NCBI GenBank assembly: GCA_903845115.1
Contig: CAIMWE010000192.1
Coordinates: 1 to 47,260, forward strand
Direction of reading: 5' to 3'
Origin: an uncultured Acidobacteriota bacterium
GTDB lineage: Bacteria; Acidobacteriota; Thermoanaerobaculia; UBA5066
DNA length: 47,260 nucleotides
Under the pieces are notes generated by a model. It made no database searches, had not been told where the DNA came from, and was given only the letters and a program-made list of their open reading frames with translations. Below are positions 17,112 through 34,283 of this stretch, piece by piece (position 1 is the stretch's first letter; each line of letters opens with the position of its first letter). The position numbers and the translations under genes are program-made.

Positions 17112-17138
17112 GTGAAATCGATGTTAATTCCGCGTGAA
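17112..17138 (-). promoter_or_regulatory. Pho-box-like triple repeat upstream of pstS
   Basis: Read on the minus strand, TTCAC, TTAAC and TTCAC occur with exact 11-base spacing (plus-strand GTGAA at 17112, GTTAA at 17123, GTGAA at 17134). It lies 68-94 bases before the pstS ATG. The 11-base tandem layout is that of PhoB sites, and pst operons are the classic PhoB target, so this copy anchors the motif used elsewhere in the window. Confidence 0.7.
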
Positions 17139-17178
17139 GTGGACGGCATGCCGCTCCAATACTGAGCTCGCGGTCGCT

Positions 17179-17216
17179 CTTACACCAACTTCACGTCCGT
17201 TTCCCGCTGCCTTCAC
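17179..17216 (+). promoter_or_regulatory. Pho-box-like four-repeat array toward the porin
   Basis: Plus-strand repeats CTTAC (17179), TTCAC (17190), TTCCC (17201) and TTCAC (17212) are spaced exactly 11 bases apart. They face the porin gene and sit back-to-back with the pstS site. The porin ATG is 108 bases after the array, further than in the other copies, so the transcript would have a long leader. Confidence 0.6.
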
Positions 17217-17323
17217 CCGCTGCGGCGAGAGTCCGCCCCGGCCGGACGGTGTGCGCCCGGCGGGCCCGAGGAAGGGGCCGGAACGAAGGATCAACTCGCC
17301 TGAATCTGAGGAGGAATCGAAGC

Positions 17324-18667
17324 ATGACCACTTTCCGCAACCGGATCGCCATGGCGGCCCTCGCCCTCGCGTGGCTCGCCCCAGCCGGGGCGATCATCCT
17401 GACGGGGCCGGCCCAGGCCCAGGTCTCCTCTCTCTTCTACAAGGAGGTGGAGAAGGACGGCCGGGTCTACGTCTTCAACACGGCTGGCCGGTTCAAGTCC
17501 TGGCAGGCCTCCGGGGACATCGGCACCGCCGTGACGATGATCGGCCAGGGCCCCGCCGGGGAGACGGTCGTCGCCGAGAACGAGACGGCGATGGACCTCT
17601 ACAACTTCAAGCACGACCGCCCCGCCTACGAGCGCCCGGCGCCCAAGCCGGCCGCCGCGCCGGCCGCTCCGGCGACGCTCCGGATCGGCGATAGCGGCGA
17701 GCTGAAGTTCGGCCTCCTCCTCCAGGGCTGGTACGTCACGGACAGCTCGCCGGCCGCCACGGGCACGAGCTGGCTGGGGAACACCACCGGCTACAACACC
17801 TTCCGCCTCCGCCGCGCCGAGATCAAGCTGAACGGCAAGATCACGCCGGACTGGGGCTTCGAGGTGATGTTCGACCCGGCGAAGTCCCAGAACGTCACCG
17901 GCAGCGCCGACACCGACAGCAAGATCCTCCAGGACCTCGCGGTCACCTACCTCGGCCTCAAGGGCCACGAGTTTTCCCTCGGGCAGAAGAAGATCGCCCT
18001 GACCGAGGAGGGCGTCCGCTCCTCCTCCGAGCTCGACTTCGCCGAGCGCGCCCAGGTGACGCGCACCTTCTCCGACCGCCGCGAGACCGGCTTCTTCTAC
18101 AAGGGCGAGTACGGCGACATGGTCGGCGCCATGGTTTCGATCACGAACGGCACCGTAGCCAACTCCAACAGCAACACGAACGACAACGTCTTCGGCGCCG
18201 CCCGGGTCGACGTCAAGCCGATCCAGGGCCTCCTCGTCGGCGGTTCGGGCGGCACCGGACCGGTCAGCGGCGGCCTCAACCACCTGGCCCGCAATCGCTG
18301 GGGCCTACACGTCAAATACGACGGCAACGACGACCTTCCGATCGGGTTCCGCGCCGAGTACATGAGTGCCACCGACGAGCAGCTCGGCAAGGCCGACCTC
18401 AAGCGCGACGGCTTCTACGTGACCGCCCTCTACACGGCTGCGAAGCAGTTCCAGTTCGGAGTCCGCTACGACGAGCTCAACAACAACAAGGACGTCGACG
18501 GCAACAAGACCAAGATGTTCACGGCCGGCTTCCACTACCTGATCAAGGGCAAGAACATCAACCTGAAGCTCGACTACTTCAACATCAAGCAGGAAGGCCG
18601 CGTGATCAACGGCGTCCTGGACGAGAAGTACCAGCAGTTCGTCCTCGCGGCCCAGGTGGCCTTCTGA
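17324..18667 (+). CDS. Phosphate-selective porin O/P family protein
   Basis: A 447-residue outer-membrane barrel of the OprP/OprO type. The signal peptide (MTTFRNRIAMAALALAWLA through PAQAQ) is followed by a Pro/Ala-rich linker near 106-120, then alternating strands such as FGLLLQGWYVTD and FRLRRAEIKLNGKI, the latter typical of the family, and a terminal aromatic strand ending FVLAAQVAF. It probably lets phosphate across the outer membrane. The ATG at 17324 has GAGGAGG nine bases upstream; the frame is open earlier but has no signal peptide there. Residues 28-105 form an extra N-terminal periplasmic segment. It is divergent from pstS and preceded by four Pho-like repeats. Confidence 0.88.
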   Translation: MTTFRNRIAMAALALAWLAPAGAIILTGPAQAQVSSLFYKEVEKDGRVYVFNTAGRFKSWQASGDIGTAVTMIGQGPAGETVVAENETAMDLYNFKHDRPAYERPAPKPAAAPAAPATLRIGDSGELKFGLLLQGWYVTDSSPAATGTSWLGNTTGYNTFRLRRAEIKLNGKITPDWGFEVMFDPAKSQNVTGSADTDSKILQDLAVTYLGLKGHEFSLGQKKIALTEEGVRSSSELDFAERAQVTRTFSDRRETGFFYKGEYGDMVGAMVSITNGTVANSNSNTNDNVFGAARVDVKPIQGLLVGGSGGTGPVSGGLNHLARNRWGLHVKYDGNDDLPIGFRAEYMSATDEQLGKADLKRDGFYVTALYTAAKQFQFGVRYDELNNNKDVDGNKTKMFTAGFHYLIKGKNINLKLDYFNIKQEGRVINGVLDEKYQQFVLAAQVAF

Positions 18668-18710
18668 CCCGCTCCTGACCAGCTCCTGACCCAACTCCTT
18701 CCGAATCCTT

Positions 18711-18812: not shown

Positions 18813-19124
18813 ATGCTCGTCGTCTTCGTCTCCACGCTGGCGTTCCTGGCCCTCGGGGGGGCCCTCCACCGCCACGCCGGCATCCCGATCGCGGTTGTTT
18901 CCGGCGTCCAGCTGGCGCTCGCCGCCGGCCTCTGGAGGGCCAGCCTCCGGCTCCACGACGCCCTGATGAGGCGGCGGGCCGTCCTGGAAGCCGCCCAGGG
19001 GGTCCCCAGGTCCGACTCCGCCGAGACGGAGTCCCGGCTGAGGTGGGTCACCCAGCTGACGAACCTCGCGTTCGGGATTGCCCTGGCGGCCGTCATCCCG
19101 CTGCTGGAAGCCATCCAGCCGTGA
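18813..19124 (+). CDS. Small two-helix membrane protein of unknown function
   Basis: A 103-residue protein with hydrophobic segments at about 2-38 (one long or two short helices) and 77-98, and a charged middle (RLHDALMRRRAVLEAAQ) that probably faces the cytoplasm. I do not recognise the family. The ATG follows AAGGAG at good spacing, and its stop overlaps the GTG start of the glycosidase gene as GTGA, so the two are co-translated. Unlike most genes nearby it has no TTCAC-type repeat in the 70 bases between the porin terminator and its start. Confidence 0.65.
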   Translation: MLVVFVSTLAFLALGGALHRHAGIPIAVVSGVQLALAAGLWRASLRLHDALMRRRAVLEAAQGVPRSDSAETESRLRWVTQLTNLAFGIALAAVIPLLEAIQP

Positions 19125-20434
19125 CGGGAACGGCCTCGAAGGTGCCGTTCCCGCTCTCCGACCGCCCGCGCCTCTGGGGCGTCGCCGTCTCCCACTACCA
19201 GGTCGAGGGGGACGACCCGTGCGACTGGACCGACTGGGAGGCCGCGGGCCGGACGAACGGCGGCGCGTGCGGGCGGGCGGCCGACTCCTGGAGCCGGTAC
19301 GAGGAGGACGCCGGCCTCGCGGGGGCGCTCGGCGCCAATGCCTTCCGGTTCTCCGTCTCCTGGAGCCGGGTCGAGCCCCGCCGGGGCGAGTTCGACGACG
19401 AGGCGCTCGAGCGGTACCGGCGGCTCGTGGACCACCTGGCGGCGACCGGGATGGAGCCGGTCGTCACCCTCTTCCACTACACCCACCCCCGCTGGTTCCA
19501 CTCCGGGACCCCCTGGACCTCCCCCGCCTCCGTCGAGGTCTTCTCGCGGTTCGCCGAGCGGACCGCCCGGGCGCTGGGGCCGGCGGCGCGCGTCTACACC
19601 ATCCTGAACGAGCCGCTCGTCTTCGTCCTGGGTGGCTTCCTCGACGGACAGATCCCCCCCGGAATAGCGGACGGCCGGTCGGCCGCGTCCGCCCTCGACC
19701 ACCTCCTCGCGGCCCACGCCGAGGCGGCCGCACGGGTCCGCGACGTGACGCCGCACGCCGCCATCGGCGTCGCCCACAACATGATGGAGTTCGTCCCGGA
19801 GCGCCGGTGGAACCCCCTCGACCGGCTCCTCGCGAATCGCGCGGACCGCCTCTACAACGCCGGGCTGCTGGAGGCCTTCCGGACCGGCCGGTGGAACTTC
19901 ACGATTCCGCCATTCACCCGCTTCTCCGGGCGGAGGGACGACCTGCCGGGCTCCCTCGATTTCCTCGGCGTCAATTGCTACTCGCGCCTCCACCTCCGGA
20001 GCCCGGGCCGGACCCGCGTCGTGGGCGACTTCCGGTACGTCGACCGGTCCGGACGGGGGCTGACCGACAACGGGTGGGAGATCGTCCCGGAGGCTTTCGA
20101 GAGGCTCCTCCGGCGCGCTTCTTCCCTCGGGCTCCCCCTCCTCGTCACGGAGAACGGCCTGGCCGACGCCGCGGACTCCCGCCGGAGCCGGTTCCTCGAG
20201 GAGCACGCCGCCTCACTGGAGCGGGTCGCCGCGGACGTCCCCGTCGCGGGATACCTCCACTGGTCGCTCCTGGACAACTTCGAGTGGCTGGACGGATACG
20301 GGCCGAAGTTCGGCCTCTACTCCTTCGATCCCGTCACGTTCGAGCGCCGGGAGAGGCCCTCGGCCCAGACCTTCCGGCGCCTCGGCCGGCGGTTCCTGGA
20401 AGGCCCTCCAGCGCCACAATTTACCCGCCTCTAA
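19121..20434 (+). CDS. Glycoside hydrolase family 1 beta-glycosidase
   Basis: A 437-residue (beta/alpha)8 retaining glycosidase. The acid/base glutamate is in TILNEP and the nucleophile in LVTENG, and family segments GVAVSHYQVEG, FRFSVSWSRVEP, LDFLGVNCY and HWSLLDNFEW are present. GH1 enzymes cleave beta-linked glucose, galactose or related sugars from oligosaccharides or glycolipids; the substrate cannot be read from sequence. No signal peptide is visible, so it is probably cytoplasmic. The GTG start overlaps the small membrane-protein gene by four bases. The last codons overlap the Pho-like repeats of the next unit. Confidence 0.9.
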   Translation: MTGTASKVPFPLSDRPRLWGVAVSHYQVEGDDPCDWTDWEAAGRTNGGACGRAADSWSRYEEDAGLAGALGANAFRFSVSWSRVEPRRGEFDDEALERYRRLVDHLAATGMEPVVTLFHYTHPRWFHSGTPWTSPASVEVFSRFAERTARALGPAARVYTILNEPLVFVLGGFLDGQIPPGIADGRSAASALDHLLAAHAEAAARVRDVTPHAAIGVAHNMMEFVPERRWNPLDRLLANRADRLYNAGLLEAFRTGRWNFTIPPFTRFSGRRDDLPGSLDFLGVNCYSRLHLRSPGRTRVVGDFRYVDRSGRGLTDNGWEIVPEAFERLLRRASSLGLPLLVTENGLADAADSRRSRFLEEHAASLERVAADVPVAGYLHWSLLDNFEWLDGYGPKFGLYSFDPVTFERRERPSAQTFRRLGRRFLEGPPAPQFTRL

Positions 20435-20446
20435 CGCCTTCTCCAC
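20420..20446 (+). promoter_or_regulatory. Pho-box-like triple repeat upstream of the PHP-GT21 pair
   Basis: TTTAC (20420), CTAAC (20431) and TCCAC (20442) have exact 11-base spacing and lie 45-77 bases before the PHP gene start. The first two copies straddle the stop codon of the preceding glycosidase gene. Individually weaker than the pstS copy, but in the same position and orientation. Confidence 0.5.
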
Positions 20447-20496: not shown

Positions 20497-21267
20497 ATGC
20501 TTCTAGCGGACTTCCACATCCACACGACCTGGTCCGACGGGACGCTGTCCGTGCGCGAGGTGGTGGACCTGTTCGGGCGGTCGGGACACGACGTCATCGC
20601 GATCACGGACCACGTGGTCAACACCGACAGCCTCATCGGCAGGATCGGCCACCGCCTGAACCTGAGCGTCACTCGCGACACGTGGGACGCCTACCGGGCC
20701 GAGGTCGACCGCGAGGCGAGGTACGCCCGCGACCGGTACGGGATGGTCGTCCTGGCAGGCTGCGAGCTGACGAGGAACTCCTTCACCGGCGACAGGTCCG
20801 CCCACGCTCTCGCGCTCGGGCTCGACTCCTTCGTCTCCGCGGACGGCGGGGTGGAGGAGATGCTGACCCGGGCGCGGGAAGCCAGGGCCATCACCGTGGC
20901 CTGCCACCCGAACGAGCAGTCCGGTTGGTTCGAGAACACCACCTACATCTGGAAGCGCCGCCGAGAGGTGGGCAGCCTGATCGACCTCTGGGAGGTCGCC
21001 TGCCGGTGGGACCTCTTCCCGCCGGTGTCGAAGGCCCGGGTCGCCTACCTCGGCAACAGCGACTTCCACTCCCCGAAGCACCTCTACGCGTGGAAGTCCC
21101 TCGTCGACTGCGAGAAGAGCGAGGCGGCGGTCCTCTCCGCGCTCCGGAAGGGGATCGGGTTCGGAGTGACCCGCCTGGTCTCGCCCGTGCCCGTGGAATC
21201 CGTCCGGGACCCCGAGCCCGCCCCCTGCGGCTGCCTGCCCGACTTTGCCGACGCCCAGCCCGCCTGA
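20497..21267 (+). CDS. PHP-domain metal-dependent phosphoesterase
   Basis: A 256-residue PHP (polymerase and histidinol phosphatase) domain protein. Metal-binding motifs run in order: DFHIHTTWSDG at 4-14, ITDHV near 38, the ELTRNS region, ACHPNEQ, and the closing SDFHSPKH. Such proteins hydrolyse phosphomonoesters or cyclic/diester substrates with a trinuclear metal site; this member's substrate is unknown. I chose ATG 20497 because AAAGGG lies six bases upstream; ATG 20491 would add two residues but abuts that site. It is followed after 12 bases by a GT21 glycosyltransferase and preceded by a Pho-like triple repeat, which suggests phosphate scavenging or phospholipid head-group removal. Confidence 0.85.
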   Translation: MLLADFHIHTTWSDGTLSVREVVDLFGRSGHDVIAITDHVVNTDSLIGRIGHRLNLSVTRDTWDAYRAEVDREARYARDRYGMVVLAGCELTRNSFTGDRSAHALALGLDSFVSADGGVEEMLTRAREARAITVACHPNEQSGWFENTTYIWKRRREVGSLIDLWEVACRWDLFPPVSKARVAYLGNSDFHSPKHLYAWKSLVDCEKSEAAVLSALRKGIGFGVTRLVSPVPVESVRDPEPAPCGCLPDFADAQPA

Positions 21268-21279
21268 AGAGGAGGAGCC

Positions 21280-22503
21280 ATGACGGTCATCACGATCCTC
21301 GCCTCGCTCGCCGCGGTCGCCCTGCTCCTGACCACCGCCCAGGTCGTCCTCGTCTGGAGGGTCCGCCGCCGCCCTTTCGCACTCCGCCCGCCGGCGGCGG
21401 GCGATTCCCGGCCGGACGGTTCTTCGGGTCGCCCCACCCCCCGGTTCGTCTCGGTCCTCAAGCCGCTCTCGGGGCCTGAGGACGGCCTGGAGGAGAACCT
21501 CGAGTCGTTCGCGCGCCTCGAGGGGGTCCGCTACGAGGTCATCCTGTCGGTCGAGCGGCGCGACGATCCCGCCGCCGAGGTCGCCCGCCGGGTCATCGCG
21601 CGCCACCCCGACGCGCCTTTCCACCTCGTCGTCGGAGAAGGGTCCCGCGCCCGGATCCGGAACGGGAAGGTGGACCGGCTCCTGGTGGCCTCGCGGTACG
21701 CGAACGGGGACATCTTCGTCGTCTCTGACGCGAACGTCCGGGTGGAGCCGCAGGACCTCGCGACGACGGTCGCCCTCTTCGACGACCCGAAGGTCGGCTG
21801 CGTCTCCAACCTCTTCGTGGGCGAAGGGGCCCGCTCCCTCGGCTCCGTCATCGAGAGCCTCCACCTCCTCACCTTCGTCGTCCCCGGCACGGCGATCGCC
21901 GAGGCCGGCAGAATCCCCTGCGTCGTCGGGAAGTCGATGGCCATGCCTCGCCACGTCCTCGAGTCGATCGGCGGCTTCGGCGCCTTTCTTGACGTCCTGG
22001 CCGAGGACCAGGCCATCGGGCTCGCCGTCAAGGAAGCGGGGTTCCAGGTGGTCCTCTCCCCGGTCGTCGTCCGGAACGTCGTCGTGACCCGGTCGCTCCG
22101 GCGAGCGCTCGACCGGCAGGTGCGCTGGGGAAAGATCCGCTTTGCCTTCTCGGCCGCCACGTACTCTACCGAGATCCTCCTCAATCCCCTGGCGCTCGCC
22201 CTCGCCGCCCTCGCCGCCGGGGCGCTCCTCGCCCCCGAGCTCGTCCCGGCGCTCGCCGCGTTCGCCGCCGTCACGTCGTTCGTCCGCATCCTCCAGGCCG
22301 GACTCCTCGCGCGGCTGACGGGCGCCCGGCTGCGAACTCGCCACCTCACCCTGATGCCGGTCAAGGACCTCCTCCAGCTCGCGACCCAGGTCGTGCCCTA
22401 TTTCTCCTGCCACGTCTCATGGCACGGCCACCTCACCCGGATCGGCCCCGGAACCGTTCTCCTCCCGGCCGGCTGGCACGTCCCGCAGCTCTCCGCGAGC
22501 TGA
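21280..22503 (+). CDS. GT21 (ceramide glucosyltransferase-like) glycosyltransferase
   Basis: A 407-residue membrane glycosyltransferase. An N-terminal helix (2-28) is followed by LKPLSGPEDGLEENL near 60-74, then the GT21 signature: D1 in VERRDD (91-96), D2 in VSDANV (Asp150), D3 in AEDQAIG (Asp243), and the (Q/R)xxRW motif at 279-283. Hydrophobic helices follow at about 292-345. The family transfers sugar from UDP-sugar to ceramide, diacylglycerol or hopanoid-type lipids at the inner membrane. Agrobacterium uses a relative (Agt) to make phosphorus-free glycolipids under phosphate starvation. Here it follows a PHP phosphoesterase under a Pho-like site, so the same role is a fair inference. GAGGAGG precedes the ATG. 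Confidence 0.88.
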   Translation: MTVITILASLAAVALLLTTAQVVLVWRVRRRPFALRPPAAGDSRPDGSSGRPTPRFVSVLKPLSGPEDGLEENLESFARLEGVRYEVILSVERRDDPAAEVARRVIARHPDAPFHLVVGEGSRARIRNGKVDRLLVASRYANGDIFVVSDANVRVEPQDLATTVALFDDPKVGCVSNLFVGEGARSLGSVIESLHLLTFVVPGTAIAEAGRIPCVVGKSMAMPRHVLESIGGFGAFLDVLAEDQAIGLAVKEAGFQVVLSPVVVRNVVVTRSLRRALDRQVRWGKIRFAFSAATYSTEILLNPLALALAALAAGALLAPELVPALAAFAAVTSFVRILQAGLLARLTGARLRTRHLTLMPVKDLLQLATQVVPYFSCHVSWHGHLTRIGPGTVLLPAGWHVPQLSAS

Positions 22504-22542: not shown

Positions 22543-22569
22543 CTTACCTCCTGTTCACTCCCGCTTCAG
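22543..22569 (+). promoter_or_regulatory. Pho-box-like triple repeat upstream of the alkaline phosphatase
   Basis: CTTAC (22543), TTCAC (22554) and TTCAG (22565) with exact 11-base spacing, 66-92 bases before the alkaline phosphatase ATG. Alkaline phosphatase genes are a textbook PhoB target, which makes this a second anchor for the motif. Confidence 0.65.
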
Positions 22570-22634
22570 AACAAGGAGGTCCGCTCTTCACACCCCCGAG
22601 ACAGAGTCCCATCCACATCGAAAGGAGGCTCCTG

Positions 22635-24689
22635 ATGAACACCACGAAGCTCGTCCGTCTTCTCGTCGCCGCTTTCTCGGCGGCCCTCGTGATCTGGGCC
22701 AACCCGCTCCGGGCCGACGGGATCGCGGTCCGCGTAACGCCCCCGGACGCGGCCCAGTTCCTGAGGTTCCAGCTCTTCGACCTGAGGGTCGAGGCCACGG
22801 CGGCCGCCGGAAGCACCGTCTCGTCCCTGACGGTGACGCTCGACGGAGTCGACATCACGTCGAGGGGGCGCCTCCTGCCGGGCGCCACGGCGAACGTCTT
22901 GAACTGGATGTACTACGACACGGCCCTCGGCATCCCCGGGGCTCGCGTCCTGGCCGCCTCCGCGGTCGGCGTCTCCGGCTCCGCGGCGATCACCGGGTCC
23001 GGCAGCAGCTCCCTCACCATCCGCGACTGGGACGTCTCCCAGATCCGGCAGCAAAATGCTCTGGCGCCCCTCGACGCGGCCCTGGAATTTGCCGCCCGGG
23101 CGATTTCGGAAGACGCCCCCGAGCGGGTCTCGGCGGCCGGACCCGGGATGGACCAGCTCCACCTCGGCGCCAACCACCCCGCCTTCCACGTGCTGGCGGC
23201 GCCCCGAGCGGGCACGTCGCTCCCGAAGGCGAAGAACGTGATCCTCTTCATCGGCGACGGCATGGGAATCACCCACCGGACGGCCGGGCGGGTCCTCTCC
23301 AAGGGCTACACGGCCGGCAAGGCGCGCGGGACGCTCGCGATGGACCGGCTTCCGTTCAACGGAATGCTGATGACCTCGTCGCTCAACTCCCTGATCACCG
23401 ACTCGGCCCCGTCGGCCCACTCCTACTCCACGGGCAACAAGGGGAACAACGGCACGGAGGGGGTCTTCCCCGACAACGACACCGATCCGGGGAACAACCC
23501 GAGGATCGAGCACCTGTCCGAGTTGATCAACCGGACTTTCGGCAAGGTGACCGGAATCGTCTCCGACGCGTTCGCCACCGACGCCACGCTCGCCGCCTTC
23601 CTCGCCCACACGGCCGACCGGAACAACGGGACGCTGATCGCCTCCCAGTACTTCGACAACCGTGCCTCCACCGGCCTCAAGGTCCTGATGGGCGGCGGCT
23701 CGTACGACTTCATCCCGAAGTCCCAGACCGGCTCGCACCGGACCGACGAGCGTGACGTGCTCGCGGCCTTCAAGAACGACGGGTGGGTCTTCGCCGACAC
23801 GGCGACCGCGCTCGCCAAGTACACCCCCGCCCCGAACGACCGCCTCCTCGGTCTCTACAACCTGGACAACATGAACGTCGCCTACGACAAGCTCAAGCTC
23901 GGCGACCCGACCGTCCTCGGCACCTTCACCGACCAGCCCTTCCTCAAGGACATGGCGAAGAAGGCGATCGACGTCCTGAAGCAGTACCCGAACGGGTTCT
24001 TCCTGATGGTCGAGGGAGCCCACATCGACAAGCAGTCGCACCGGATGGATTCGGAGCGGGCAATCTACGACGTCATCCAGTTCGACCAGGCCATCCAGGT
24101 GGCGCTCGACTTCGCCTTGAACACGAACGGCGACGGGGATCCGAGCAACGACACCCTCATCCTGGTCACGGCCGACCACGAGTGCGGCGGCCTGGCTCTC
24201 CCCGCCGTCGCCCGCCCGGAGAAGGCGGGAACGCGGGACTACGTCAAGACGTACCAGTACTCGGCGCCCGGGAACGACAGCAAGGTCCTGAACTTCACGG
24301 ACTACACCGATTCGAAGGGGACCGGCTACCCGGAGAACCCGGCCGCCGCCCACAAGCTGATCATGAACTGGGGCGCCAACTCGGACCGCTACGAGGACTG
24401 GCAGCCGAACCCCAAGCCGAAGGACCCCGGCGTCCTGGTGAACGGGGTGGTCGTGGCCAACCCGGCCGACCCCGCGAAGGCCAACGGCGTCCTGATCACG
24501 GGGGTCATCGAGAACGGAGTGGCGGGCGGCGACGCCCAGACCCAGGCCGTCCACACGATGTCCGACATCCCGATCTCGGCGTTCGGGCCAGGAGCGTCGC
24601 AGTTCTCGCGGGTCCTGGACAACACCCAGGTCTTCTTCTCGATCGTGAACTCCATGCTGGGGACCTACCCGGTCCCGACCCAGTTCTAG
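22635..24689 (+). CDS. phoA: Alkaline phosphatase (PhoA family)
   Basis: A secreted metal-dependent phosphomonoesterase of 684 residues that frees phosphate from organic esters. The signal peptide covers about 1-27. Residues 28-135 form an extra beta-rich domain not found in E. coli PhoA. The catalytic core from about 198 has the zinc/magnesium acid in FIGDGMG (Asp208), nucleophile Ser257 in DSAPS, E460/D465/H469 in VEGAHIDKQSH, D514/H515 in TADHECGG, and the last zinc histidine in AVHTMSD. All metal ligands I can place are present. AGGAGG precedes the ATG at 22635; the frame is open earlier without a signal peptide. A Pho-like triple repeat lies upstream and a strong terminator follows. Confidence 0.95.
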   Translation: MNTTKLVRLLVAAFSAALVIWANPLRADGIAVRVTPPDAAQFLRFQLFDLRVEATAAAGSTVSSLTVTLDGVDITSRGRLLPGATANVLNWMYYDTALGIPGARVLAASAVGVSGSAAITGSGSSSLTIRDWDVSQIRQQNALAPLDAALEFAARAISEDAPERVSAAGPGMDQLHLGANHPAFHVLAAPRAGTSLPKAKNVILFIGDGMGITHRTAGRVLSKGYTAGKARGTLAMDRLPFNGMLMTSSLNSLITDSAPSAHSYSTGNKGNNGTEGVFPDNDTDPGNNPRIEHLSELINRTFGKVTGIVSDAFATDATLAAFLAHTADRNNGTLIASQYFDNRASTGLKVLMGGGSYDFIPKSQTGSHRTDERDVLAAFKNDGWVFADTATALAKYTPAPNDRLLGLYNLDNMNVAYDKLKLGDPTVLGTFTDQPFLKDMAKKAIDVLKQYPNGFFLMVEGAHIDKQSHRMDSERAIYDVIQFDQAIQVALDFALNTNGDGDPSNDTLILVTADHECGGLALPAVARPEKAGTRDYVKTYQYSAPGNDSKVLNFTDYTDSKGTGYPENPAAAHKLIMNWGANSDRYEDWQPNPKPKDPGVLVNGVVVANPADPAKANGVLITGVIENGVAGGDAQTQAVHTMSDIPISAFGPGASQFSRVLDNTQVFFSIVNSMLGTYPVPTQF

Positions 24690-25237: not shown

Positions 25238-25264
25238 TTTACCGATGGATCACCGCCTTTTCAC
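25238..25264 (+). promoter_or_regulatory. Pho-box-like triple repeat upstream of the hydrolase-GH3 pair
   Basis: TTTAC (25238), ATCAC (25249) and TTCAC (25260) with exact 11-base spacing, 56-82 bases before the alpha/beta-hydrolase ATG, in the 83-base gap after the secreted-protein gene. Confidence 0.6.
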
Positions 25265-25319: not shown

Positions 25320-26069
25320 ATGGTGACCGTCGTGTTTCTTCACGGGCTGTTCGGTCGGGCCGCCGACTTCGCCCGGGTGAGGTTTCTCCTGCCCGAACGG
25401 TTCCCCTCGCTGGCGCCGGAGCTGCCGATCGCTTCGGGCTCCGGCTCGCTCGACTCGATCGACCAGCTGGTGGACTTCGTCGAAGGGGAGCTGGACGCAT
25501 CCGGTTCGGGACCCTTCGTCCTGGTGGGGAACTCCCTGGGAGGCCACGTGGCGATTCGCACGGCTCTCGCTGCCCCCGAACGGATCGCCGGCCTGGTCCT
25601 GGCCGGTTCCTCCGGGCTCTTCGAACGCGGGCTCGAGAGCGGCGTCCCCCGCCGTCCCGAGCGTTCATGGGTGGCCGCGAAGGTCTCGGAGGTGTTCCAC
25701 GATCCCGTCCACGCGACCGACGCCCTGGTGGACGAGACCCGGGCCATCCTGCTGGACCGCCGGCGCTACCTCTCCCTCGTCCGGCTCGCCCGGAGCGCCA
25801 AGCAGGAGAACCTGGCGTCCGTCTTGCCGGGCCTCTCTGCTCCGACGCTTCTCCTCTGGGGGGCCGAGGACCGGATCACGCCCCCCGAGACGGCCCGCGA
25901 TTTCGAGAGGCTCCTGCCCCGCACCCGACTCCTCTTCCAGCCCTCCTGCGGTCACGCGCCGATGATCGAGAACGCGAGGAAATTCGCGTTTCACCTCTCC
26001 GCGTTCCTGCGGGACCTCTCCCCCGAGACGGTCGACCTTCCCCTGGAGTCCGGCGAAGAGGCCGCGTGA
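25320..26069 (+). CDS. Alpha/beta-hydrolase fold esterase or lipase
   Basis: A 249-residue alpha/beta hydrolase. The oxyanion-side motif FLHGLFG is at 6-12, the nucleophile elbow GNSLGG near 68-73, the acid in WGAEDRITP and the histidine in CGHAP: a complete Ser-Asp-His triad. It looks cytoplasmic (no signal peptide). These enzymes cleave esters, lipids or thioesters; the substrate is not readable. AAGGAGG precedes the ATG at 25320, although the frame is open far upstream. Its stop overlaps the GH3 gene start as GTGA, so hydrolase and ligase are made together, and a Pho-like triple repeat precedes it. A lipid-turnover role in phosphate starvation is an inference. Confidence 0.85.
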   Translation: MVTVVFLHGLFGRAADFARVRFLLPERFPSLAPELPIASGSGSLDSIDQLVDFVEGELDASGSGPFVLVGNSLGGHVAIRTALAAPERIAGLVLAGSSGLFERGLESGVPRRPERSWVAAKVSEVFHDPVHATDALVDETRAILLDRRRYLSLVRLARSAKQENLASVLPGLSAPTLLLWGAEDRITPPETARDFERLLPRTRLLFQPSCGHAPMIENARKFAFHLSAFLRDLSPETVDLPLESGEEAA

Positions 26070-27616
26070 CGGGCCAGCTCCTGACGGCCGCCTTCGGCGC
26101 GTGGGCCCGCGGCCGCGTCGGGAAGGTCGAGCGCCTGGGCCGCGATCCGGTCGAGGTTCAGCGCAAGACGCTCTCCCGGCTGCTACAGGCCGCTGCGGAG
26201 ACGTCGTTCGGTAAGGAGCACGCGTTTCGCCGGATCACGCGGCACTCCGGCTTCGCCTCCGCTGTCCCGGTCCGGCGGTACGCCCAGTTCGTCCCCTGGA
26301 TCGATCGCCAGCTCTCCGGGGAGGCCGACGTCTGCTGGCCGGGCCGTCCCCGCTACTTCGCCAAGACCTCGGGGACGACCGCGGGCGACAAGTCGATCCC
26401 GGTTACCGAGGAGATGGTGGGGCAGAACCGTCGGGCCGGGCGCGACATCCTCGCGTTCCACCTCCGGAACACTCCCGGCTCGGGCATCCTCGGGGGGCGT
26501 CAGCTCTTCCTGGGAGGGTCGACGCTTCTCGAGCCGCTCCCGACCGGCGCCTTTCGCGGGGACCTGTCCGGGGTGATGGCCCGCGAGATGCCGTTCTATC
26601 TCCGTCCCGGCATCCTCCCCTCCCCCGGCGTCGTCGCGATCGCCGGGTGGGAGAAGAAGCTCGAGGCGATCGCGAAGGAGAGCCTCTCGCAGGACCTCCG
26701 GCTGATCGCCGGGATGCCGTCCTGGTCGCTTCTCCTGTTTGAAGCGTGGAAGAGACTCTCCGGGGGCGCCACCGTCGGTGAGCTCTTCCCGAGGCTCGAG
26801 CTGTTCGTGCACGGCGGAGTCCGCTACGAGCCGTACCAGGCCCCGGCCGAGGCCGCGGTCGGCAGGGGCGTTCGGCGCCTGGAGGTCTACCCCGCGAGCG
26901 AGGCCTTCATCGCCGTGCAGGACGCCGCTCCCGCCGACGGACTCCTCCTCGGCCTCGACTACGGGACGTTCTACGAGTTCATCCCGGCTGCGGAGGCGGG
27001 CTCCGATTCGCCCCGCCGGCTCGGGATCGGCGACGTGTCGCTGGGCGAGACCTACTCGATCGTCCTCTCGAACGTCGCCGGCCTCTGGGCGTACGAGATC
27101 GGCGACCTCGTCCGCTTCGTGTCGATCACGCCCCCTCGCCTGGTCGTGGCCGGACGCACCGGCCACTTCTCGAACTGCTGCGGCGAGAACCTGATCGTCG
27201 AGGAGGTGGAAGCGGGCGCAACGACCGCCGCCGCAGCGTGTCGACTCCCTCTCGGGGAGTTCACCGTCGCCCCGGTCTACCCGGACGCCGTCGACTCCCG
27301 CCCGCGTCTCGAATGGGTCGTGGAGCTTCCCGACGACGAGCCATTCCTGGAGGAACCGCTCCTCATCGCCTTCGACCGGACCCTCCGCGCCCGGAACCAC
27401 GACTACGACACCAAGAGAACCCACGACGCCGGCATGCTGCAGCCGGTCCTGACCGTCGTCCCCAGCGGGACGTTCCACGCCTGGCTCCGCTCCCGGGGAA
27501 AGCTCGGGGGGCAGAACAAGGTGCCGCGGCTGATGAACGACCGCTCGATTGTCGACTCCGTCCTCGGGGCGGTTCGGCCGGGCGGACACCCTCTGACCGA
27601 CGCCCCGGGCCGCTGA
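26066..27616 (+). CDS. GH3-family acyl-adenylating amide synthetase-like protein
   Basis: A 516-residue member of the GH3 family, known in plants for ATP-dependent conjugation of carboxylic acids such as auxin or jasmonate to amino acids. ATP-binding motif 1 is YFAKTSGTTAGDKSIPVT, motif 2 contains EVYPASEAF, motif 3 YEIGDLVRF, followed by VAGRTGHFSN. Bacterial members are common but mostly uncharacterised. The acyl and amine substrates are unknown here. GTG at 26066 overlaps the hydrolase stop by four bases. One reading is that the hydrolase releases an acid and GH3 re-conjugates it to an amine, which could make a phosphorus-free amino lipid. That is speculation. Confidence 0.85.
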   Translation: MTGQLLTAAFGAWARGRVGKVERLGRDPVEVQRKTLSRLLQAAAETSFGKEHAFRRITRHSGFASAVPVRRYAQFVPWIDRQLSGEADVCWPGRPRYFAKTSGTTAGDKSIPVTEEMVGQNRRAGRDILAFHLRNTPGSGILGGRQLFLGGSTLLEPLPTGAFRGDLSGVMAREMPFYLRPGILPSPGVVAIAGWEKKLEAIAKESLSQDLRLIAGMPSWSLLLFEAWKRLSGGATVGELFPRLELFVHGGVRYEPYQAPAEAAVGRGVRRLEVYPASEAFIAVQDAAPADGLLLGLDYGTFYEFIPAAEAGSDSPRRLGIGDVSLGETYSIVLSNVAGLWAYEIGDLVRFVSITPPRLVVAGRTGHFSNCCGENLIVEEVEAGATTAAAACRLPLGEFTVAPVYPDAVDSRPRLEWVVELPDDEPFLEEPLLIAFDRTLRARNHDYDTKRTHDAGMLQPVLTVVPSGTFHAWLRSRGKLGGQNKVPRLMNDRSIVDSVLGAVRPGGHPLTDAPGR

Positions 27617-27731: not shown

Positions 27732-27747
27732 TTCAACCCGAATTCAC
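27732..27747 (+). promoter_or_regulatory. Pho-box-like repeat pair upstream of the small helical protein
   Basis: TTCAA (27732) and TTCAC (27743) 11 bases apart, preceded by weaker CTCGA at 27721; 46-61 bases before the ATG of the 70-residue protein. Two good copies instead of three. Confidence 0.4.
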
Positions 27748-27792
27748 GCTCGGGCGTCACCATTCCTGCCTCTAGAACCGTGGGAGGACGAC

Positions 27793-28005: not shown

Positions 28006-28032
28006 CCCGAGGTTCCGGGGAGCCGGACGGTT

Positions 28033-28293: not shown

Positions 28294-28336
28294 ATTTCCC
28301 TCCTCTCCATTCGAGGCGGGATGCTGCTGTGCCTCC

Positions 28337-28363
28337 TTGAAATCCCGGTGAGGCGAACGTAAA
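28337..28363 (-). promoter_or_regulatory. Pho-box-like triple repeat upstream of the CPxC protein
   Basis: On the minus strand TTTAC, CTCAC and TTCAA occur at exact 11-base spacing (plus-strand positions 28359, 28348, 28337), 44-70 bases before the ATG at 28293. Confidence 0.5.
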
Positions 28364-28423
28364 GATCTTCTCCTCCGAGCAAGCGCCGAGACGGCACTCT
28401 CGGGTGCCGCCGGCCCATGACAT

Positions 28424-28450
28424 CTCACAGGGCCTTCACGGGCTCTTCAC
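28424..28450 (+). promoter_or_regulatory. Pho-box-like triple repeat upstream of the SpsF-SMR-CHAD run
   Basis: CTCAC (28424), TTCAC (28435) and TTCAC (28446) with exact 11-base spacing, 52-78 bases before the ATG at 28502. One of the best copies outside pstS. It is divergent from the site serving the CPxC gene, 60 bases away. Confidence 0.65.
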
Positions 28451-28501
28451 CCTTCCTGCGACTCCTTCTCCGACGATGCCGTCCAGGAGAAGCCTGACCC
28501 G

Positions 28502-28639
28502 ATGAGACGGAAGAAAGTCCTTCTGATCAACGGCTCGCTCGACCAGTCGGCGATGATGCATCGCGTCTGCGAGCAGCTCGCCGCGACGCACATCCGCGTC
28601 CATTCCCGGTTCCAAGCTGACGGCTGCCCTCCGGCGTGA
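28502..28639 (+). pseudogene. Short ORF, likely N-terminal remnant of a glycosyltransferase
   Basis: A 45-codon frame whose first 30 residues (MRRKKVLLINGSLDQSAMMH) look like the N-terminal nucleotide-binding strand of GT-B type glycosyltransferases, which should run to 350 or more residues. It then ends at a TGA that overlaps the next gene's GTG as GTGA. AGGAG lies upstream at long spacing. I read it as a gene cut down by deletion whose start region is kept because it carries the promoter and coupling signal. It could instead be a short leader peptide. The assignment to a glycosyltransferase is from memory of the family's N-terminus and is not firm. Confidence 0.4.
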
Positions 28640-29466: not shown

Positions 29467-29614
29467 ACACGCTCCTGTTCTCCCCGTCGGGGAGGGTCGC
29501 CGTCGTATCCCGCCAGCAAAGGGGCCGTGCTCTCCTTCACCCGGTGGAGTTCGTCGACGCCGTGCGCCATCCGCGTCCTCCAGCCGACCCGGCTCGCCCG
29601 GAAGGAGAGTAGAA

Positions 29615-29998
29615 ATGCGGCCCTGGATCTTTCTCGTCCTCTCGGCCCTCCTTCAGGTCGGCTGGCTCTTCAGCCTCAGGCAGACCGAGGGCTTCACGCG
29701 TCTCGTCCCCCTCCTCTTCTACGGTTTCTTCGGGCTCACTTCCGCTTACTGCCTCTCCCGCTCCCTCGACGGGATCCCCATGAGCACCGCCTACGCCGTG
29801 TGGACCGGCATCTCCGTCGCCGGAACGGCGATGGTCGACCTGGCCGTCTTCCGGCAGCTGGACCTCTCCCGGCTGCTCTGCATCGCCCTCATCCTCGCGG
29901 GATCGACCGGTCTCAGGATCGCTTCGGAGCCTCACGCCAGGCCGGGCGCCGGGCCGACCTCCCCCCCGGCAACCGACCCCGTCGGAGACGCTCGATGA
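29615..29998 (+). CDS. SMR-family four-helix membrane protein with Gln at the Glu14 position
   Basis: A 127-residue protein with four hydrophobic helices (about 4-22, 30-50, 57-77, 84-104) and a Pro-rich tail; the GFTRLVPLLFY and GIPMSTAYAVWTGI segments are typical of small multidrug resistance proteins. The residue aligned with the essential Glu14 of EmrE is Gln14 (codon CAG). Proton-coupled drug export needs that glutamate, so this protein is unlikely to be an ordinary multidrug or guanidinium exporter. Some SMR relatives move lipid-linked sugars, and its company of a sugar nucleotidyltransferase fits that better. AAGGAG precedes the ATG. Confidence 0.85.
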   Translation: MRPWIFLVLSALLQVGWLFSLRQTEGFTRLVPLLFYGFFGLTSAYCLSRSLDGIPMSTAYAVWTGISVAGTAMVDLAVFRQLDLSRLLCIALILAGSTGLRIASEPHARPGAGPTSPPATDPVGDAR

Positions 29999-30019
29999 GC
30001 CCTCGAGGACCCGGAAGCC

Positions 30020-30907
30020 ATGAAGGCTGACGTCCCGAGTCCCTTCCACGGTCCTCGCCCGGCCGTGCCGGTCCTGGACGAGGCGATCCGTCGCCAGCGG
30101 GACGACCTCAGGCGGATCCTGGCGGCATACGGCCGCAACGCCGGGCCGAACGGGCTTCACGACCTCCGGGTCGCCCTCCGCCGGTCGGCCGCGCTCGGGA
30201 GGCTGCTGGGCGGGCATCCCGGCCCGAAGGACGGCCGAGAGGTCCGAAAGCTGGCCGACCGGCTTCGCCGCTACCTGTCGCCCGCCCGGCAGCGGCAGGT
30301 CTCGCTCGAGCTCGTCCGGATCCTCACCCGGAAGGACGAGGCGCTCCATCGCCTCGTTGCCACCGTCCTCTCGTCGGGAAGGGGCATCTCGAGGCACCCC
30401 GGCGTCGCCGACGTCCAGCGGTCGGGAGGACAAGTCCTGTCCGCCATGGACGAGTGGAGGGAGTCGATCTCTCACGGCGCGCATAACAGGGCCTCGAACC
30501 GGAAGCTCGGACGGTCGGTCGAACGCCGGGTCCGGGAGGGAGCGCGGGAAATCCTCGAGATCGGCATTCCGGGCCGCAAGGCCCTCCACCCGCAACGCAT
30601 CGCCTGCAAGAAGCTACGGTACGAACTGGAGATTCTCCGGGACGTCGTGCCGGGAGTCGAGCGGGTGGTGAAGGCCTCGCGGAGAGCCCAGGAGGTCCTC
30701 GGCGACGCCCACGACTGGGACGGCCTGGTCCAGGACCTCGAGAAGGCGGCCGGGACGTTGCCGCCTCGAGAAAAGAGAGCCATCGCGGACCTGATCTCGA
30801 GGGCGAAGTCGAACCGCCGGCGCACCTCGCTTCGGGCGAAGGACGCGATGGCCGATTTCCTGCCCCTCGTGGAGACCCTCCCCCACCTCGTGAAGCCGGT
30901 CAGCTAG
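30020..30907 (+). CDS. CHAD-domain protein (polyphosphate-binding)
   Basis: A 295-residue CHAD (conserved histidine alpha-helical domain) protein, all helix and very basic. The repeat pattern is GLHDLRVALRRSAALGRLL near 45-63 and HPQRIACKKLRYELEIL near 192-208, each with the conserved His and Arg/Lys that line a positively charged groove. CHAD domains bind polyphosphate chains and associate with polyphosphate granules. There is no attached CYTH domain. Its ATG is 21 bases after the SMR gene with only a weak GAGGA upstream. Location in a Pho-preceded unit supports a phosphate-storage role. Confidence 0.88.
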   Translation: MKADVPSPFHGPRPAVPVLDEAIRRQRDDLRRILAAYGRNAGPNGLHDLRVALRRSAALGRLLGGHPGPKDGREVRKLADRLRRYLSPARQRQVSLELVRILTRKDEALHRLVATVLSSGRGISRHPGVADVQRSGGQVLSAMDEWRESISHGAHNRASNRKLGRSVERRVREGAREILEIGIPGRKALHPQRIACKKLRYELEILRDVVPGVERVVKASRRAQEVLGDAHDWDGLVQDLEKAAGTLPPREKRAIADLISRAKSNRRRTSLRAKDAMADFLPLVETLPHLVKPVS

Positions 30908-31066
30908 GGGCGAGGCTGGCGGCGAGATTCCTCTCCACCCGGCGGGCTGCACCACGGAGCCGTTCCGGATCGAGCGCAGCCTCAACGCGAACGTCGTGGC
31001 CTAGGAGGCCATTCCGGACGGGAACCGAAACAGCGAAGCAAAGGCGCGGGACGAGGCCCGGACCGC

Positions 31067-31639
31067 CTATACCTTTCCTTTCCCCTTGGCCTTCGCCGGC
31101 ACTTTCCCCCGCGAGGCGGAGCGCGTCGCCCGTTTCACGGGGCTGCGCCTGGCTGCCGGCCCGAGGCTCGAGTCGTCGGATCCCTCTTCCGGCCGGCGGA
31201 CGGGCGACCCGATCCGGCTCGCCGCCTCCAGGGCCTGGCGCCGGATGGACCCGCTCGCCGGGGCCTTCGCCGCGTGCCGGATGACGTCGTTCACCGAGAG
31301 CAGCCCGGCCACGCGCCCGTCGGGGTGAAGGACCGGGAGACGACGGACCTGGTTGAGCGACATCGTCTCCAGGGCATCCTCGAGGTCGTCCTCCGGCCCG
31401 CAGAAATGGAGAGTACCGCTGATGACCTCCGCCACGACGATCAGTGACGGAGTCCGATTGCGGGTCGCCGAGGCGATCGCGACGTCGCGGTCCGTGATCA
31501 TCCCGACCACCGTTCCGTCGGGGCTCAGGACCGGGAGAGCGCCGCAGTCCTTCTCGAACAGGGCGCTCGTCACCAGAGCCAGGTCGTCGCTCACCGCACA
31601 GCAGCTCGGCTCTACCGTCATGATGTCCCGAACCTTCAT
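31067..31639 (-). CDS. CBS-domain pair protein with basic tail
   Basis: A 190-residue protein with two CBS domains (about 1-60 and 70-125; motifs MITDRDVAI and GLLSVNDVI near their ends), which bind adenine nucleotides and act as energy-sensing modules. After a linker, the last 45 residues are Lys/Arg/Ala/Ser-rich, ending KVPAKAKGKGKV, which resembles histone-like tails and may bind nucleic acid or polyphosphate. The ATG follows GGAGG at seven bases. It is convergent with CHAD and divergent from the pyruvate-kinase-like gene. I see no Pho-like repeats on its strand. Confidence 0.82.
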   Translation of the reverse strand: MKVRDIMTVEPSCCAVSDDLALVTSALFEKDCGALPVLSPDGTVVGMITDRDVAIASATRNRTPSLIVVAEVISGTLHFCGPEDDLEDALETMSLNQVRRLPVLHPDGRVAGLLSVNDVIRHAAKAPASGSIRRQALEAASRIGSPVRRPEEGSDDSSLGPAARRSPVKRATRSASRGKVPAKAKGKGKV

Positions 31640-31841
31640 CGCCTTACCTCCGTCTTGCCCCTTGGATCTCCGCGAAATGCCGAAGAGCGCCGCCGCTGAT
31701 CCGCTCCGCCCGGGACCGGCACGCCGCGTCCCCGGCGGGAACGCGACCGGATTCTAGACTACTCGCTCCGACCGGCCGCCCGCGGGCCCGCCAGCCTCCG
31801 CCTGGAGTTCACCCGGAGTTCCGGCGCGGGAGCGGACCGTC

Positions 31842-31857
31842 TTCACACTCTCTTCAC
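31842..31857 (+). promoter_or_regulatory. Pho-box-like repeat pair upstream of the pyruvate-kinase-like gene
   Basis: Two perfect TTCAC copies (31842, 31853) 11 bases apart. A further pair, TTCAC (31808) and TTCCG (31819), lies 23 bases upstream, also 11 apart. A possible -10 (GACAAT, 31869-31874) follows, which would put the transcript start next to the GTG at 31883. Confidence 0.55.
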
Positions 31858-31882
31858 ACGAAAAGAGGGACAATTCGGTGAA

Positions 31883-33739
31883 GTGGTTTTTCCCCGAACT
31901 CCCTCAGGACCCAAGGCGGCCCCTGGCCTCAGTTCGATCCAGTCGCTCCGCCAGACGCTCCGGGGGCTGAGGACCGACCTCGTCTCATTTGAGCGGGAGA
32001 ACGACCTTTCCACCCAGGCGATGCCCGCGACGAGGCGGGAGAGCGCCCGGAACCTCTGCCATTACGTCGCGATTCGGCGCACTGACATCCGGCAGGTCCA
32101 GGACCAGCTCGCGGCCATGGGAATCTCCTCCCTGGGACGGGCCGAATCGAACGTCCTATTCGTCCTGGACGCGGTCCTCCGGATCCTCGACCATCTCGCG
32201 GACGGCCGGGGCCGCCCGGTCTCCGGGTCGGTGAGCCGCTTCGCGCAGGGCCGCCGGACCCTGGCCGGGAACACGGATGCGCTCCTCGGGCCCAATCGTC
32301 CCGGGCGGGACGTCCGGATCATGGTCACGATGCCGAGCGAGGCGGCGCACGACTACGCCCTCGTGAGGGACCTCGTCGCGTGCGGCATGGACACGATGCG
32401 GATCAACTGCGCGCACGACGCCCCCAGCGACTGGTCCGCCATGATCCGGAACCTGCGGCGAGCCGAGCGGGAGACGGGGAGGAAGTGCCCGGTCCTGATG
32501 GACCTGGGGGGTCCGAAGCTCCGGACGGGTGCGATCGAGCACGGGATTCCCGTCGCGGACTGGCGTCCCCACCGCGACGTCCTGGGACGGATCGAAGCGC
32601 CCGCCCGGATCTGGCTGACGCCCGACCTCTCGGCGCACCCGGCCCCGCTGCCGGCCGACGCCGCCCTTCCGCTGCCTACGGAATGGCTCGAGACCCTGGC
32701 GGAGAAGGACTCCCTCCAGTTCCGCGACGCCAGGAGAGGCGTCCGGACCCTCCGAGTCGTCGGCCGGCACGGCGAGGGATGGTGGGCAGAAGGAATACGG
32801 GCCGCCTACGTCGTCCCGGGAACGAGGGTCCGGAACGTCCGCACTGGCCAGGAGGCGTCAGTGGGAGCGTTGCCGCCGGCCGAGCAGTGTCTCGTCCTCC
32901 GGCGGGGGGACATCCTGGTCCTGACCCGGGAATCGTTTCCGGGCCGCCCGGCTCGCCACGACGCGGCGGGACGCGTCGTCACCCCGGCCTCGATCCCGTG
33001 CACGCTTCCGGAGGCCTTCTCGGTCGTCGCGCCCGGCGAGAGGATCTGGTTCGACGACGGGAAGATCGGGGGAGTGATCCGCAAGGTCGGAAGGGACCAG
33101 GTCCTCGTCGAGATCACGCAGGCGCGTCCGAAGGGCGGGAACCTCCGGAGCGACAAGGGGATCAACCTGCCCGACAGCGCCCTGTCGCTGCCCGCGCTCA
33201 CGGAGAAGGACCTGGCCGACCTTCCTTTCGTGGCGAAGCACGCGGACATCGTGGGCCTCTCGTTCGTGCGGCGCCCCGAGGACATCGCGGCCCTCTCGGC
33301 CCGGCTCCAGGAGCTGGGCGCCGCCGACAAGGGGGTGGTCCTGAAGATCGAGTCCCGTCAGGCTTTCGAGGCCCTGCCGGACCTCCTGATGGCCGCGCTC
33401 CGGCTCCCCAGGTCCGGCATCATGATCGCCCGGGGGGACCTCCTCGTCGAATGCGGCTACGAGCGGCTCGCGGAGATCCAGGAGGAGATCCTCTGGCTCT
33501 GCGAAGCGGCCCACCTGCCGGTCGTCTGGGCTACCCAGGTCCTCGAGAGCCTCGCCCAGAAGGGGATCCCGTCACGGGCCGAGATCACCGACGCCGCCAT
33601 GGGCGGCCGCGCGGAGTGCGTGATGCTCAACAAGGGGCCCCACATCCTCGAGGCAATCGAGATCCTCGACAGCATCCTGCGCCGGATGCAGTCCCACCAG
33701 GCGAAGAAGACCTCCCGGCTGCGGCGCCTGCACTTCTGA
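31883..33739 (+). CDS. Pyruvate-kinase-like protein with N-terminal helical extension
   Basis: A 618-residue protein. The N-terminal helical part (1-140; SARNLCHYVAIRRTDIRQVQ) is unlike classical pyruvate kinase. The barrel follows with MDTMRINCAH, MDLGGPKLRTG, IWFDDGKIGG, LPALTEKDL, LSFVRRPED, the catalytic-region KIESRQAFE, MIARGDL and TQVLESL motifs. It lacks the C-terminal allosteric domain. An enlarged B-domain region with many basic residues occupies about 205-360. Proteins of this layout are annotated pyruvate kinase in other bacteria, but their activity is uncertain. GTG at 31883 is the first in-frame start and keeps the helical extension; no good ribosome site is visible. Pho-like repeats lie 26-41 bases upstream. 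Confidence 0.75.
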   Translation: MVFPRTPSGPKAAPGLSSIQSLRQTLRGLRTDLVSFERENDLSTQAMPATRRESARNLCHYVAIRRTDIRQVQDQLAAMGISSLGRAESNVLFVLDAVLRILDHLADGRGRPVSGSVSRFAQGRRTLAGNTDALLGPNRPGRDVRIMVTMPSEAAHDYALVRDLVACGMDTMRINCAHDAPSDWSAMIRNLRRAERETGRKCPVLMDLGGPKLRTGAIEHGIPVADWRPHRDVLGRIEAPARIWLTPDLSAHPAPLPADAALPLPTEWLETLAEKDSLQFRDARRGVRTLRVVGRHGEGWWAEGIRAAYVVPGTRVRNVRTGQEASVGALPPAEQCLVLRRGDILVLTRESFPGRPARHDAAGRVVTPASIPCTLPEAFSVVAPGERIWFDDGKIGGVIRKVGRDQVLVEITQARPKGGNLRSDKGINLPDSALSLPALTEKDLADLPFVAKHADIVGLSFVRRPEDIAALSARLQELGAADKGVVLKIESRQAFEALPDLLMAALRLPRSGIMIARGDLLVECGYERLAEIQEEILWLCEAAHLPVVWATQVLESLAQKGIPSRAEITDAAMGGRAECVMLNKGPHILEAIEILDSILRRMQSHQAKKTSRLRRLHF

Positions 33740-33828
33740 CCTGGTCCGGGCCTCGCCCTCGCTGGGTCCTACCCTAACTTCTTACACCGTCGTCGTGCCG
33801 CTCTTGTCGTCTGGGCCGGCCGAGTTCC

Positions 33829-34188
33829 TCAGACCTCGGTCGGCTTCGGATTGGAGGAGAGGGCCGCGATCCCTTCCTCGCGCGTCGCGTGGTACTCGAA
33901 GAGCCTTTCCAGGCCGGACACCCGGAGGACGAGACGGTGCCTCGACTCGAGACCCGCGAAGTGAACCGAGAATCCCTTATGGGAGAGGCGAGTCCGTAGG
34001 GCCACGAGAACCCCCACGAGGTACGAGCTGATGTACTTCACCCCGGACACCTCGAGGAGGGTCGGCCCCGGCGTGTCACGGGCGAACGAGTCGAATTCGT
34101 GCTTGAGGTCCTGGGCGGTCTCGGTGGCCAGCTTCCCTTCGAGCGTCACCACCCTCACCGGCCCGACCGTCTCGATGCTCAATGCCAT
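33829..34188 (-). CDS. STAS-domain protein (anti-sigma factor antagonist-like)
   Basis: A 119-residue single STAS domain: an N-terminal strand VRVVTLEGKLATETA, then LLEVSGVKYISSYLVGVLVAL, where the Ser pair at about 54-55 lies at the position phosphorylated in SpoIIAA/RsbV proteins (family form D-S-S-G-L). The expected Gly after the Ser is Tyr here, so phosphorylation is plausible but not certain. Such proteins act as partner switches or modules of transporters and stress regulation. There is no kinase or sigma factor next to it. AAGGAGAG lies upstream of the ATG. It is convergent with the pyruvate-kinase-like gene. Confidence 0.82.
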   Translation of the reverse strand: MALSIETVGPVRVVTLEGKLATETAQDLKHEFDSFARDTPGPTLLEVSGVKYISSYLVGVLVALRTRLSHKGFSVHFAGLESRHRLVLRVSGLERLFEYHATREEGIAALSSNPKPTEV

Positions 34189-34267
34189 GCCTCGTTACTC
34201 TCCTTCAAGCAGCTTGTACTCTGAAACTCCTGAGCATTCGCTCCGGACCCGACCCCGTACCGGCCTT

Positions 34268-34283
34268 TTTACACGGTCTTCAC
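34268..34283 (+). promoter_or_regulatory. Pho-box-like repeat pair facing a gene-free region
   Basis: TTTAC (34268) and TTCAC (34279) 11 bases apart; the longer units TTTACACGG and CTTCACACG match at seven of nine positions. No protein gene follows on the plus strand. In reverse orientation it is 80-95 bases before the STAS gene start, but all other copies face their gene. Confidence 0.4.

Follow-up and report, generated by a model that had tools for sequence, protein, structure and literature searches.

The locus and the question

Tandem TTCAC-like pentamers at 11-base spacing recur along some 17 kb of the genome of an acidobacterium of the Thermoanaerobaculia type, which raises the question of whether one regulator reads them and, if so, which one. 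The window analysed here is the whole stretch of 47,260 nucleotides, corresponding to 0.8 % of the genome (5.85 Mb, 305 contigs). Among genomes that carry a name, those with the closest pstS relatives bear the labels Thermoanaerobaculia and Acidobacteriota, which suggests this class and phylum for the window. The repeats are very probably binding sites of PhoB, and are therefore referred to below as predicted or candidate Pho boxes.

Repeat sites and their motif

An earlier note on this DNA had listed ten such sites. All of them were confirmed in position and strand by direct reading of the sequence. They are given below with their scores from an independent matrix, trained on 17 boxes at pstS, porin, PHP and ppx-phoU promoters of other genomes and on none from the window.

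17112..17138, minus strand: candidate pst-phoBRU Pho box, three units (TTCAC/TTAAC/TTCAC), 67 bases before the pstS start; matrix 41.6, the highest score in the window
17179..17216, plus strand: candidate porin O/P Pho box, four units, divergent from the pstS box; matrix 22.3/21.0
20420..20446, plus strand: candidate PHP-GT21 Pho box, three degenerate units, 50 bases before the start; matrix 18.4
22543..22569, plus strand: candidate phoA Pho box, three units and an in-register TTCAC at 22587, 65 bases before the start; matrix 13.1
25238..25264, plus strand: candidate Pho box of the alpha/beta hydrolase-GH3 pair, three units, 55 bases before the start; matrix 14.2
27732..27747, plus strand: candidate two-unit box before the gene of a 70-aa protein, one unit imperfect; matrix below 10 bits
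28337..28363, minus strand: candidate Pho box before an 86-aa hypothetical gene, three units; matrix 14.4
28424..28450, plus strand: candidate Pho box before a 45-aa ORF and a cytidylyltransferase gene, three units; matrix 22.0
31842..31857, plus strand: candidate two-unit Pho box, 25 bases before the pyruvate-kinase-like gene; two-unit matrix 24.7
34268..34289, plus strand: candidate orphan two-unit Pho box, facing only the 3' end of metG; two-unit matrix 27.0

Nine sites face a gene start and the tenth (34268) faces none that is annotated, as the earlier note had implied. Its distances of mostly 40-95 bases held for most sites, the full range being 25-107 bases: the start codon of the pyruvate-kinase-like gene lies 25 bases away, that of the porin 107, and those of the seven others 43-67. 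Every gene-facing box is oriented along its gene. Across 28 units the core reads (T 22, C 5)(T 27)(C 20, T 6, A 2)(A 27)(C 25), its third position often being A or T. The base 5' of TTCAC is mostly C or T, and the base 3' of it is A, C or G.

As in Pho boxes, the units are direct repeats at 11-base pitch, and boxes stand before pst, phosphatase and other phosphate genes in the orientation of the gene, the orphan at 34268 being the exception. Gene and domain searches bore out that boxes precede pstS and the alkaline phosphatase gene phoA, the two PhoB targets named earlier.

Genes of the stretch

The pstS box fronts an operon in which the Pst transporter is encoded together with PhoB, PhoR and PhoU:

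16079..17044, minus strand: pstS (TIGR02136 above cut-off, PF12849)
13752..15956, minus strand: ORF containing pstC (PF00528, permease domain in the C-terminal part)
12115..14487, minus strand: ORF containing pstA (PF00528 at residues 557-753; true start probably internal)
11249..12592, minus strand: ORF containing pstB (PF00005; true start probably internal)
10527..11207, minus strand: phoB, OmpR-family response regulator (TIGR02154 PhoB is the best NCBIfam match, below cut-off, 212 vs 296)
8719..10650, minus strand: phoR-type histidine kinase (HisKA, HATPase_c, PAS; PnpS/PhoR are the best NCBIfam matches, below cut-off)
8042..8722, minus strand: phoU (TIGR02135 above cut-off)

The pstC ORF is long, with sub-threshold WD40-like matches ahead of the permease domain, and the ORF holding pstA is also long.

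On the other side of the opposed pair of boxes, the following genes were assigned:

17324..18667, plus strand: phosphate-selective porin O/P (PF07396)
19121..20434, plus strand: GH1 glycosidase (PF00232), first gene of a conserved GH1-PHP-GT21 order
20497..21267, plus strand: PHP-domain phosphoesterase (PF02811 just above cut-off)
21280..22503, plus strand: GT21 glycosyltransferase, ceramide-glucosyltransferase/HpnI-like (PF13506; PDB ceramide glucosyltransferase chains; HpnI below cut-off)
22635..24689, plus strand: alkaline phosphatase phoA (PF00245)
25320..26069, plus strand: alpha/beta hydrolase (PF12697)
26066..27616, plus strand: GH3 (acyl-acid amido synthetase-like) protein (PF03321)
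30020..30907, plus strand: CHAD-domain protein (PF05235)
31883..33739, plus strand: pyruvate-kinase-like protein (PF00224; PRK14725 above cut-off)

A small membrane protein gene lies between the porin and GH1 genes, and a hypothetical protein gene between phoA and the alpha/beta hydrolase gene. Small genes were found at 27793, 28033 and 28502. The cytidylyltransferase gene is followed by genes for SMR, CHAD, CBS, pyruvate-kinase-like and STAS proteins and by metG. The 45-aa ORF (28502-28639, plus strand), which directly follows a strong box, may be a truncated gene; no relative of it was found among the loci compared. Behind the box at 34268, searches for a small RNA or an ORF revealed no Rfam match and no coding-like ORF. 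After metG, the hand translation of 34488-34583 (minus strand) resembles a membrane-sorting tail (IPALGPVGLLTLAGLLALAGVAFIVRR), with no gene in front.

Conservation in related genomes

The orthologous promoters of pstS, porin and PHP-GT21 showed clear conservation, which the earlier note had made a condition of its reading; at phoA and the hydrolase it was weak, and the one ortholog of the pyruvate-kinase-like gene examined had no box. In relatives of the same family and class, pstS boxes lie 54-72 bases before the start (for instance TTCACGCCGAT TTAACGCCGGC CTCAC), with a box at the same position in G003, G004, G005, G006, G010 and others. The opposed pstS and porin boxes both recur in G004 and G005, where the divergent porin is kept, and in G018 a box precedes both porin and pstS.

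The PHP box is among the least perfect in the window, yet it is the best tested for conservation. Nine other genomes, seven of them outside matrix training, display it with at least 10 bits in the same orientation, its end lying 41-55 bases from the PHP start. Being related to one another, they do not count as independent trials. Of three further genomes, two were without a box and one had a weak one. The box was never found in opposite orientation among the relatives, which also conserve the GH1-PHP-GT21 gene order. Other families of the order (f2 and f3) carry a box before ppx-phoU.

For phoA, the G011 ortholog has a score of 4.6 close to the start and a better one, 17.3, roughly 230 bases upstream, and a distant homologue in G039 has an upstream box of 18.7; two other homologues examined had no box upstream. 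G011 also keeps the phoA-hypothetical-hydrolase order, and its alpha/beta hydrolase ortholog is preceded by a weaker box (9.2). Another box variant, of GTAAC-type 11-base units, was encountered before pstS in Rokubacteria, Methylomirabilota and several Geobacter relatives (L082-L140).

A narrower form of the PhoB-box explanation, rather than an alternative to it, would be that only the conserved boxes function (pstS, porin, PHP-GT21, and probably phoA and hydrolase-GH3) and that those at 27732-34268 are decaying or accidental copies. No genes of this downstream part were shown to have box-bearing orthologs, the sole ortholog of the pyruvate-kinase-like gene examined (in G007) having no box before it; one downstream box faces no gene and another a 45-aa ORF. 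Against this, the scores of the boxes at 28424, 31842 and 34268 match those of conserved boxes, and the two-unit scores of the last two are hard to explain without selection, the 1.4 Mb of background examined holding no two-unit score of 18 or more. Such a reduced regulon is the less likely version.

The regulator

The explanation by PhoB is favoured by two features of the gene content: the boxes of relatives mostly precede known phosphate genes (pstS, porin O/P, PHP-GT21, ppx-phoU), and the strongest box of the window fronts the operon of a PhoB-like regulator, a PhoR-like kinase and PhoU. On the other side stand the strong box at 34268, which faces no gene, and the PhoB score. The earlier statement that phoB lies in the window is supported by the PhoB model being the best NCBIfam match and is weakened by a score under the cut-off of that model; the PhoR-type kinase likewise stays under strict equivalog cut-offs.

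The sub-threshold PhoB score would also suit another OmpR-family regulator, RegX3- or MtrA-like for example, which would bind the repeats and control envelope or phosphate genes. Members of this family generally use tandem repeats of about 11-base pitch, and a PDB sequence comparison ranked RegX3 first and MtrA second for the PhoB of the window, so the families are close. Such a regulator is nevertheless improbable: the strongest box precedes the operon encoding PhoB itself with PhoR and PhoU, and the targets of the boxes across families are phosphate genes. RegX3 is, moreover, itself a phosphate regulator in mycobacteria (PMC4415409).

In the PhoB-DNA crystal structure, R201 bonds specifically with guanine, as reported in PMC3973317. 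In the recognition helix, the residue aligned to R201 of E. coli PhoB is S here and in the family, and T in the more distant Acidobacteria RBG_13_68_16, and the TTCAC-type unit is without the guanine of the E. coli unit. The match between the R201-to-S change and a guanine-free unit is only suggestive, because Vicinamibacteria keep R and yet use TTAAC. For the same reason a general covariation rule between PhoB residue 201 and the first base of the unit was rejected as not clean: Thermoanaerobaculia pair S or T with TTMAC, and Rokubacteria and some Geobacter relatives pair R with GTAAC. The recognition helix of Vicinamibacteria is built differently, yet their TTAAC boxes are very similar, which leaves the pairing of PhoB and unit putative here.

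Frequency in the window and in the genome

Within the window, the pattern TTCAC-N6-TTCAC-N6-TTCAC with at most three mismatches was matched eight times, against 0.34 in shuffles. For TTCAC-N6-TTCAC with at most two mismatches the figures were 31 and 13.6, and none of 100 shuffles gave as high a count. Spacing controls with the independent matrix, from 7 to 16 bases, uncovered an excess at 11 bases only, spacings of 7-10 and 12-16 giving zero or one window hit.

Over the whole genome, the three-unit TTCAC pattern with at most two mismatches was found five times, four of them in the window. The refined pattern YTHAC x3 with at most one mismatch yielded ten matches, nine of which fell in the window at seven places; as this pattern was adapted to the window, its genome count is partly circular. 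Another whole-genome scan, with a loose pattern and at most one mismatch, placed eight of nine matches inside the window. The outside matches that were inspected (C17, C82, C280) sat inside a gene or at a gene end and were not promoter-oriented. A sequence-only covariance model (R1) tried for the whole-genome scan was discarded as too weak, with two sites found, both in the window, probably because the model ignores the high G+C content.

The independent matrix gave 13 hits of at least 10 bits in the window (overlapping registers of one box being counted separately), all at nine of the ten sites and nowhere else. Outside the window, 1.4 Mb of the same genome also held 13 such hits, from which 0.44 would be expected in the window. 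At 16 bits or more, seven hits were present in the window and none in this background; the contrast is conservative because some background contigs were picked for holding pattern hits. Weaker boxes elsewhere in the genome are possible, since the matrix covered 1.4 Mb and the patterns favour three good units. An equal frequency of the motif elsewhere, which the earlier note had set down as speaking against its reading, was not seen in these scans.

Chance matches between genes in a C+T-rich, high-GC region, as a short, degenerate core and the control-rate count of the loose pattern with two mismatches genome-wide (91 vs 94, that is, noise) could suggest, are an exceedingly improbable origin of the repeats, being excluded at the strong sites by shuffles, reversed-pattern controls, own-genome background, spacing controls and orthologous conservation, and may still account for site 27732, where the R1 match was at noise level only (E 4.6).

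Nearly all good three-unit matches of the 5.85-Mb genome fall in this window. The strong Pho boxes of E. coli are dispersed over its genome. The clustering of strong boxes in one stretch of the present genome, beside their presumed regulator, is partly conserved: pst and PHP-GT21 lie within about 11-14 kb in G006, as do pst, PHP-GT21 and ppx-phoU in G015, and in G004 PHP-GT21 is on a different contig from pst.

Comparison with known Pho-type sites

Like the Escherichia coli PhoB box, the present boxes are tandem 11-base units before pstS and phoA, accompanied by the PhoB-PhoR-PhoU-Pst gene set. They differ from it by their TTCAC-like unit, in contrast to CTGTCAT, and by the strong boxes lying nearly all in one island. 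The pattern TGTCA-N6-TGTCA with at most one mismatch was not found in the window.

Published Pho boxes consist of 11-base direct repeat units bound head to tail by PhoB, and the unit varies by bacterium, from CTGTCAT in E. coli to GTTCACC in Streptomyces (PMC4415409). The PHO box of Streptomyces coelicolor PhoP, the counterpart of PhoB, is close to those described here, with 11-nt direct repeats, a TTCAC core and a variable unit number (PMC4415409). It has G before TTCAC where the acidobacterial unit mostly has C or T; the phylum, here Acidobacteriota, is another, and the position of R201 in E. coli PhoB is occupied by S in the regulator here. The core of the Streptomyces-type heptamer is present in the window, its flanking G and final C not being conserved. 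In Microlunatus phosphovorus, the PolR site (GTTCACnnnnnGTTCaC) also comprises TTCAC repeats at 11-base pitch before phosphate-transport and polyphosphate genes (PMC6754071); this regulator, from another phylum, has been classed as DevR-like and not with the OmpR family.

The earlier proposal of a lineage-specific TTCAC-type unit is consequently retained in a modest form. TGTCA pairs are absent, but the unit is only partly new, given that GTTCACC at 11-base pitch is already used by Streptomyces PhoP; the acidobacterial box is close to, and short of, the full Streptomyces heptamer. In the collection of papers searched by full text, none dealt with Pho boxes of Acidobacteriota.

Proposed regulation and its meaning

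We infer the following course, in which PhoB as the binder, activation by its binding and phosphate as the signal are read from the genes and their boxes. Under phosphate scarcity, PhoB would be phosphorylated by the PhoR of its own operon, and phospho-PhoB would occupy two to four 11-base units, (T/C)T(C/A/T)AC, in a head-to-tail arrangement. From boxes ending 25-107 bases before start codons, bound PhoB would recruit RNA polymerase and so switch on pstSCAB-phoBRU, the divergent outer-membrane porin, the PHP-GT21 pair, phoA and some neighbours. As the box would drive the whole of pstSCAB-phoBRU, phoB included, positive autoregulation is proposed.

In Agrobacterium, phosphate-free glycolipids are made by the processive glycosyltransferase Pgt, and a Pho box is predicted in the promoter of its gene (PMC3972451). 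Together with the conserved box before PHP-GT21 and the kinship of GT21, this case suggests lipid remodelling, and the GH1-[box]-PHP-GT21 module is, judging from family membership, perhaps devoted to phosphate-sparing glycolipid synthesis. A bolder proposal, which is speculative and on balance doubtful in its entirety, would combine three elements. The strong part of the Pho regulon would essentially form one contiguous 17-kb island beside its regulator. GH1-[Pho box]-PHP-GT21 would be an undescribed phosphate-starvation pathway of Acidobacteriota that swaps phospholipids for glycolipids, GT21 making the glycolipid and PHP freeing phosphate or processing a lipid precursor. The R-to-S loss of the PhoB R201-guanine contact would accompany the TTCAC-type unit of the class.

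The matrix, tested on held-out promoters, is a usable Pho-box tool for a large, mostly uncultured bacterial group whose phosphate responses are little known, and it lets regulons be proposed from genomes alone. The most useful lead is the GH1-PHP-GT21 trio, a candidate for the making of phosphate-free membrane lipids.
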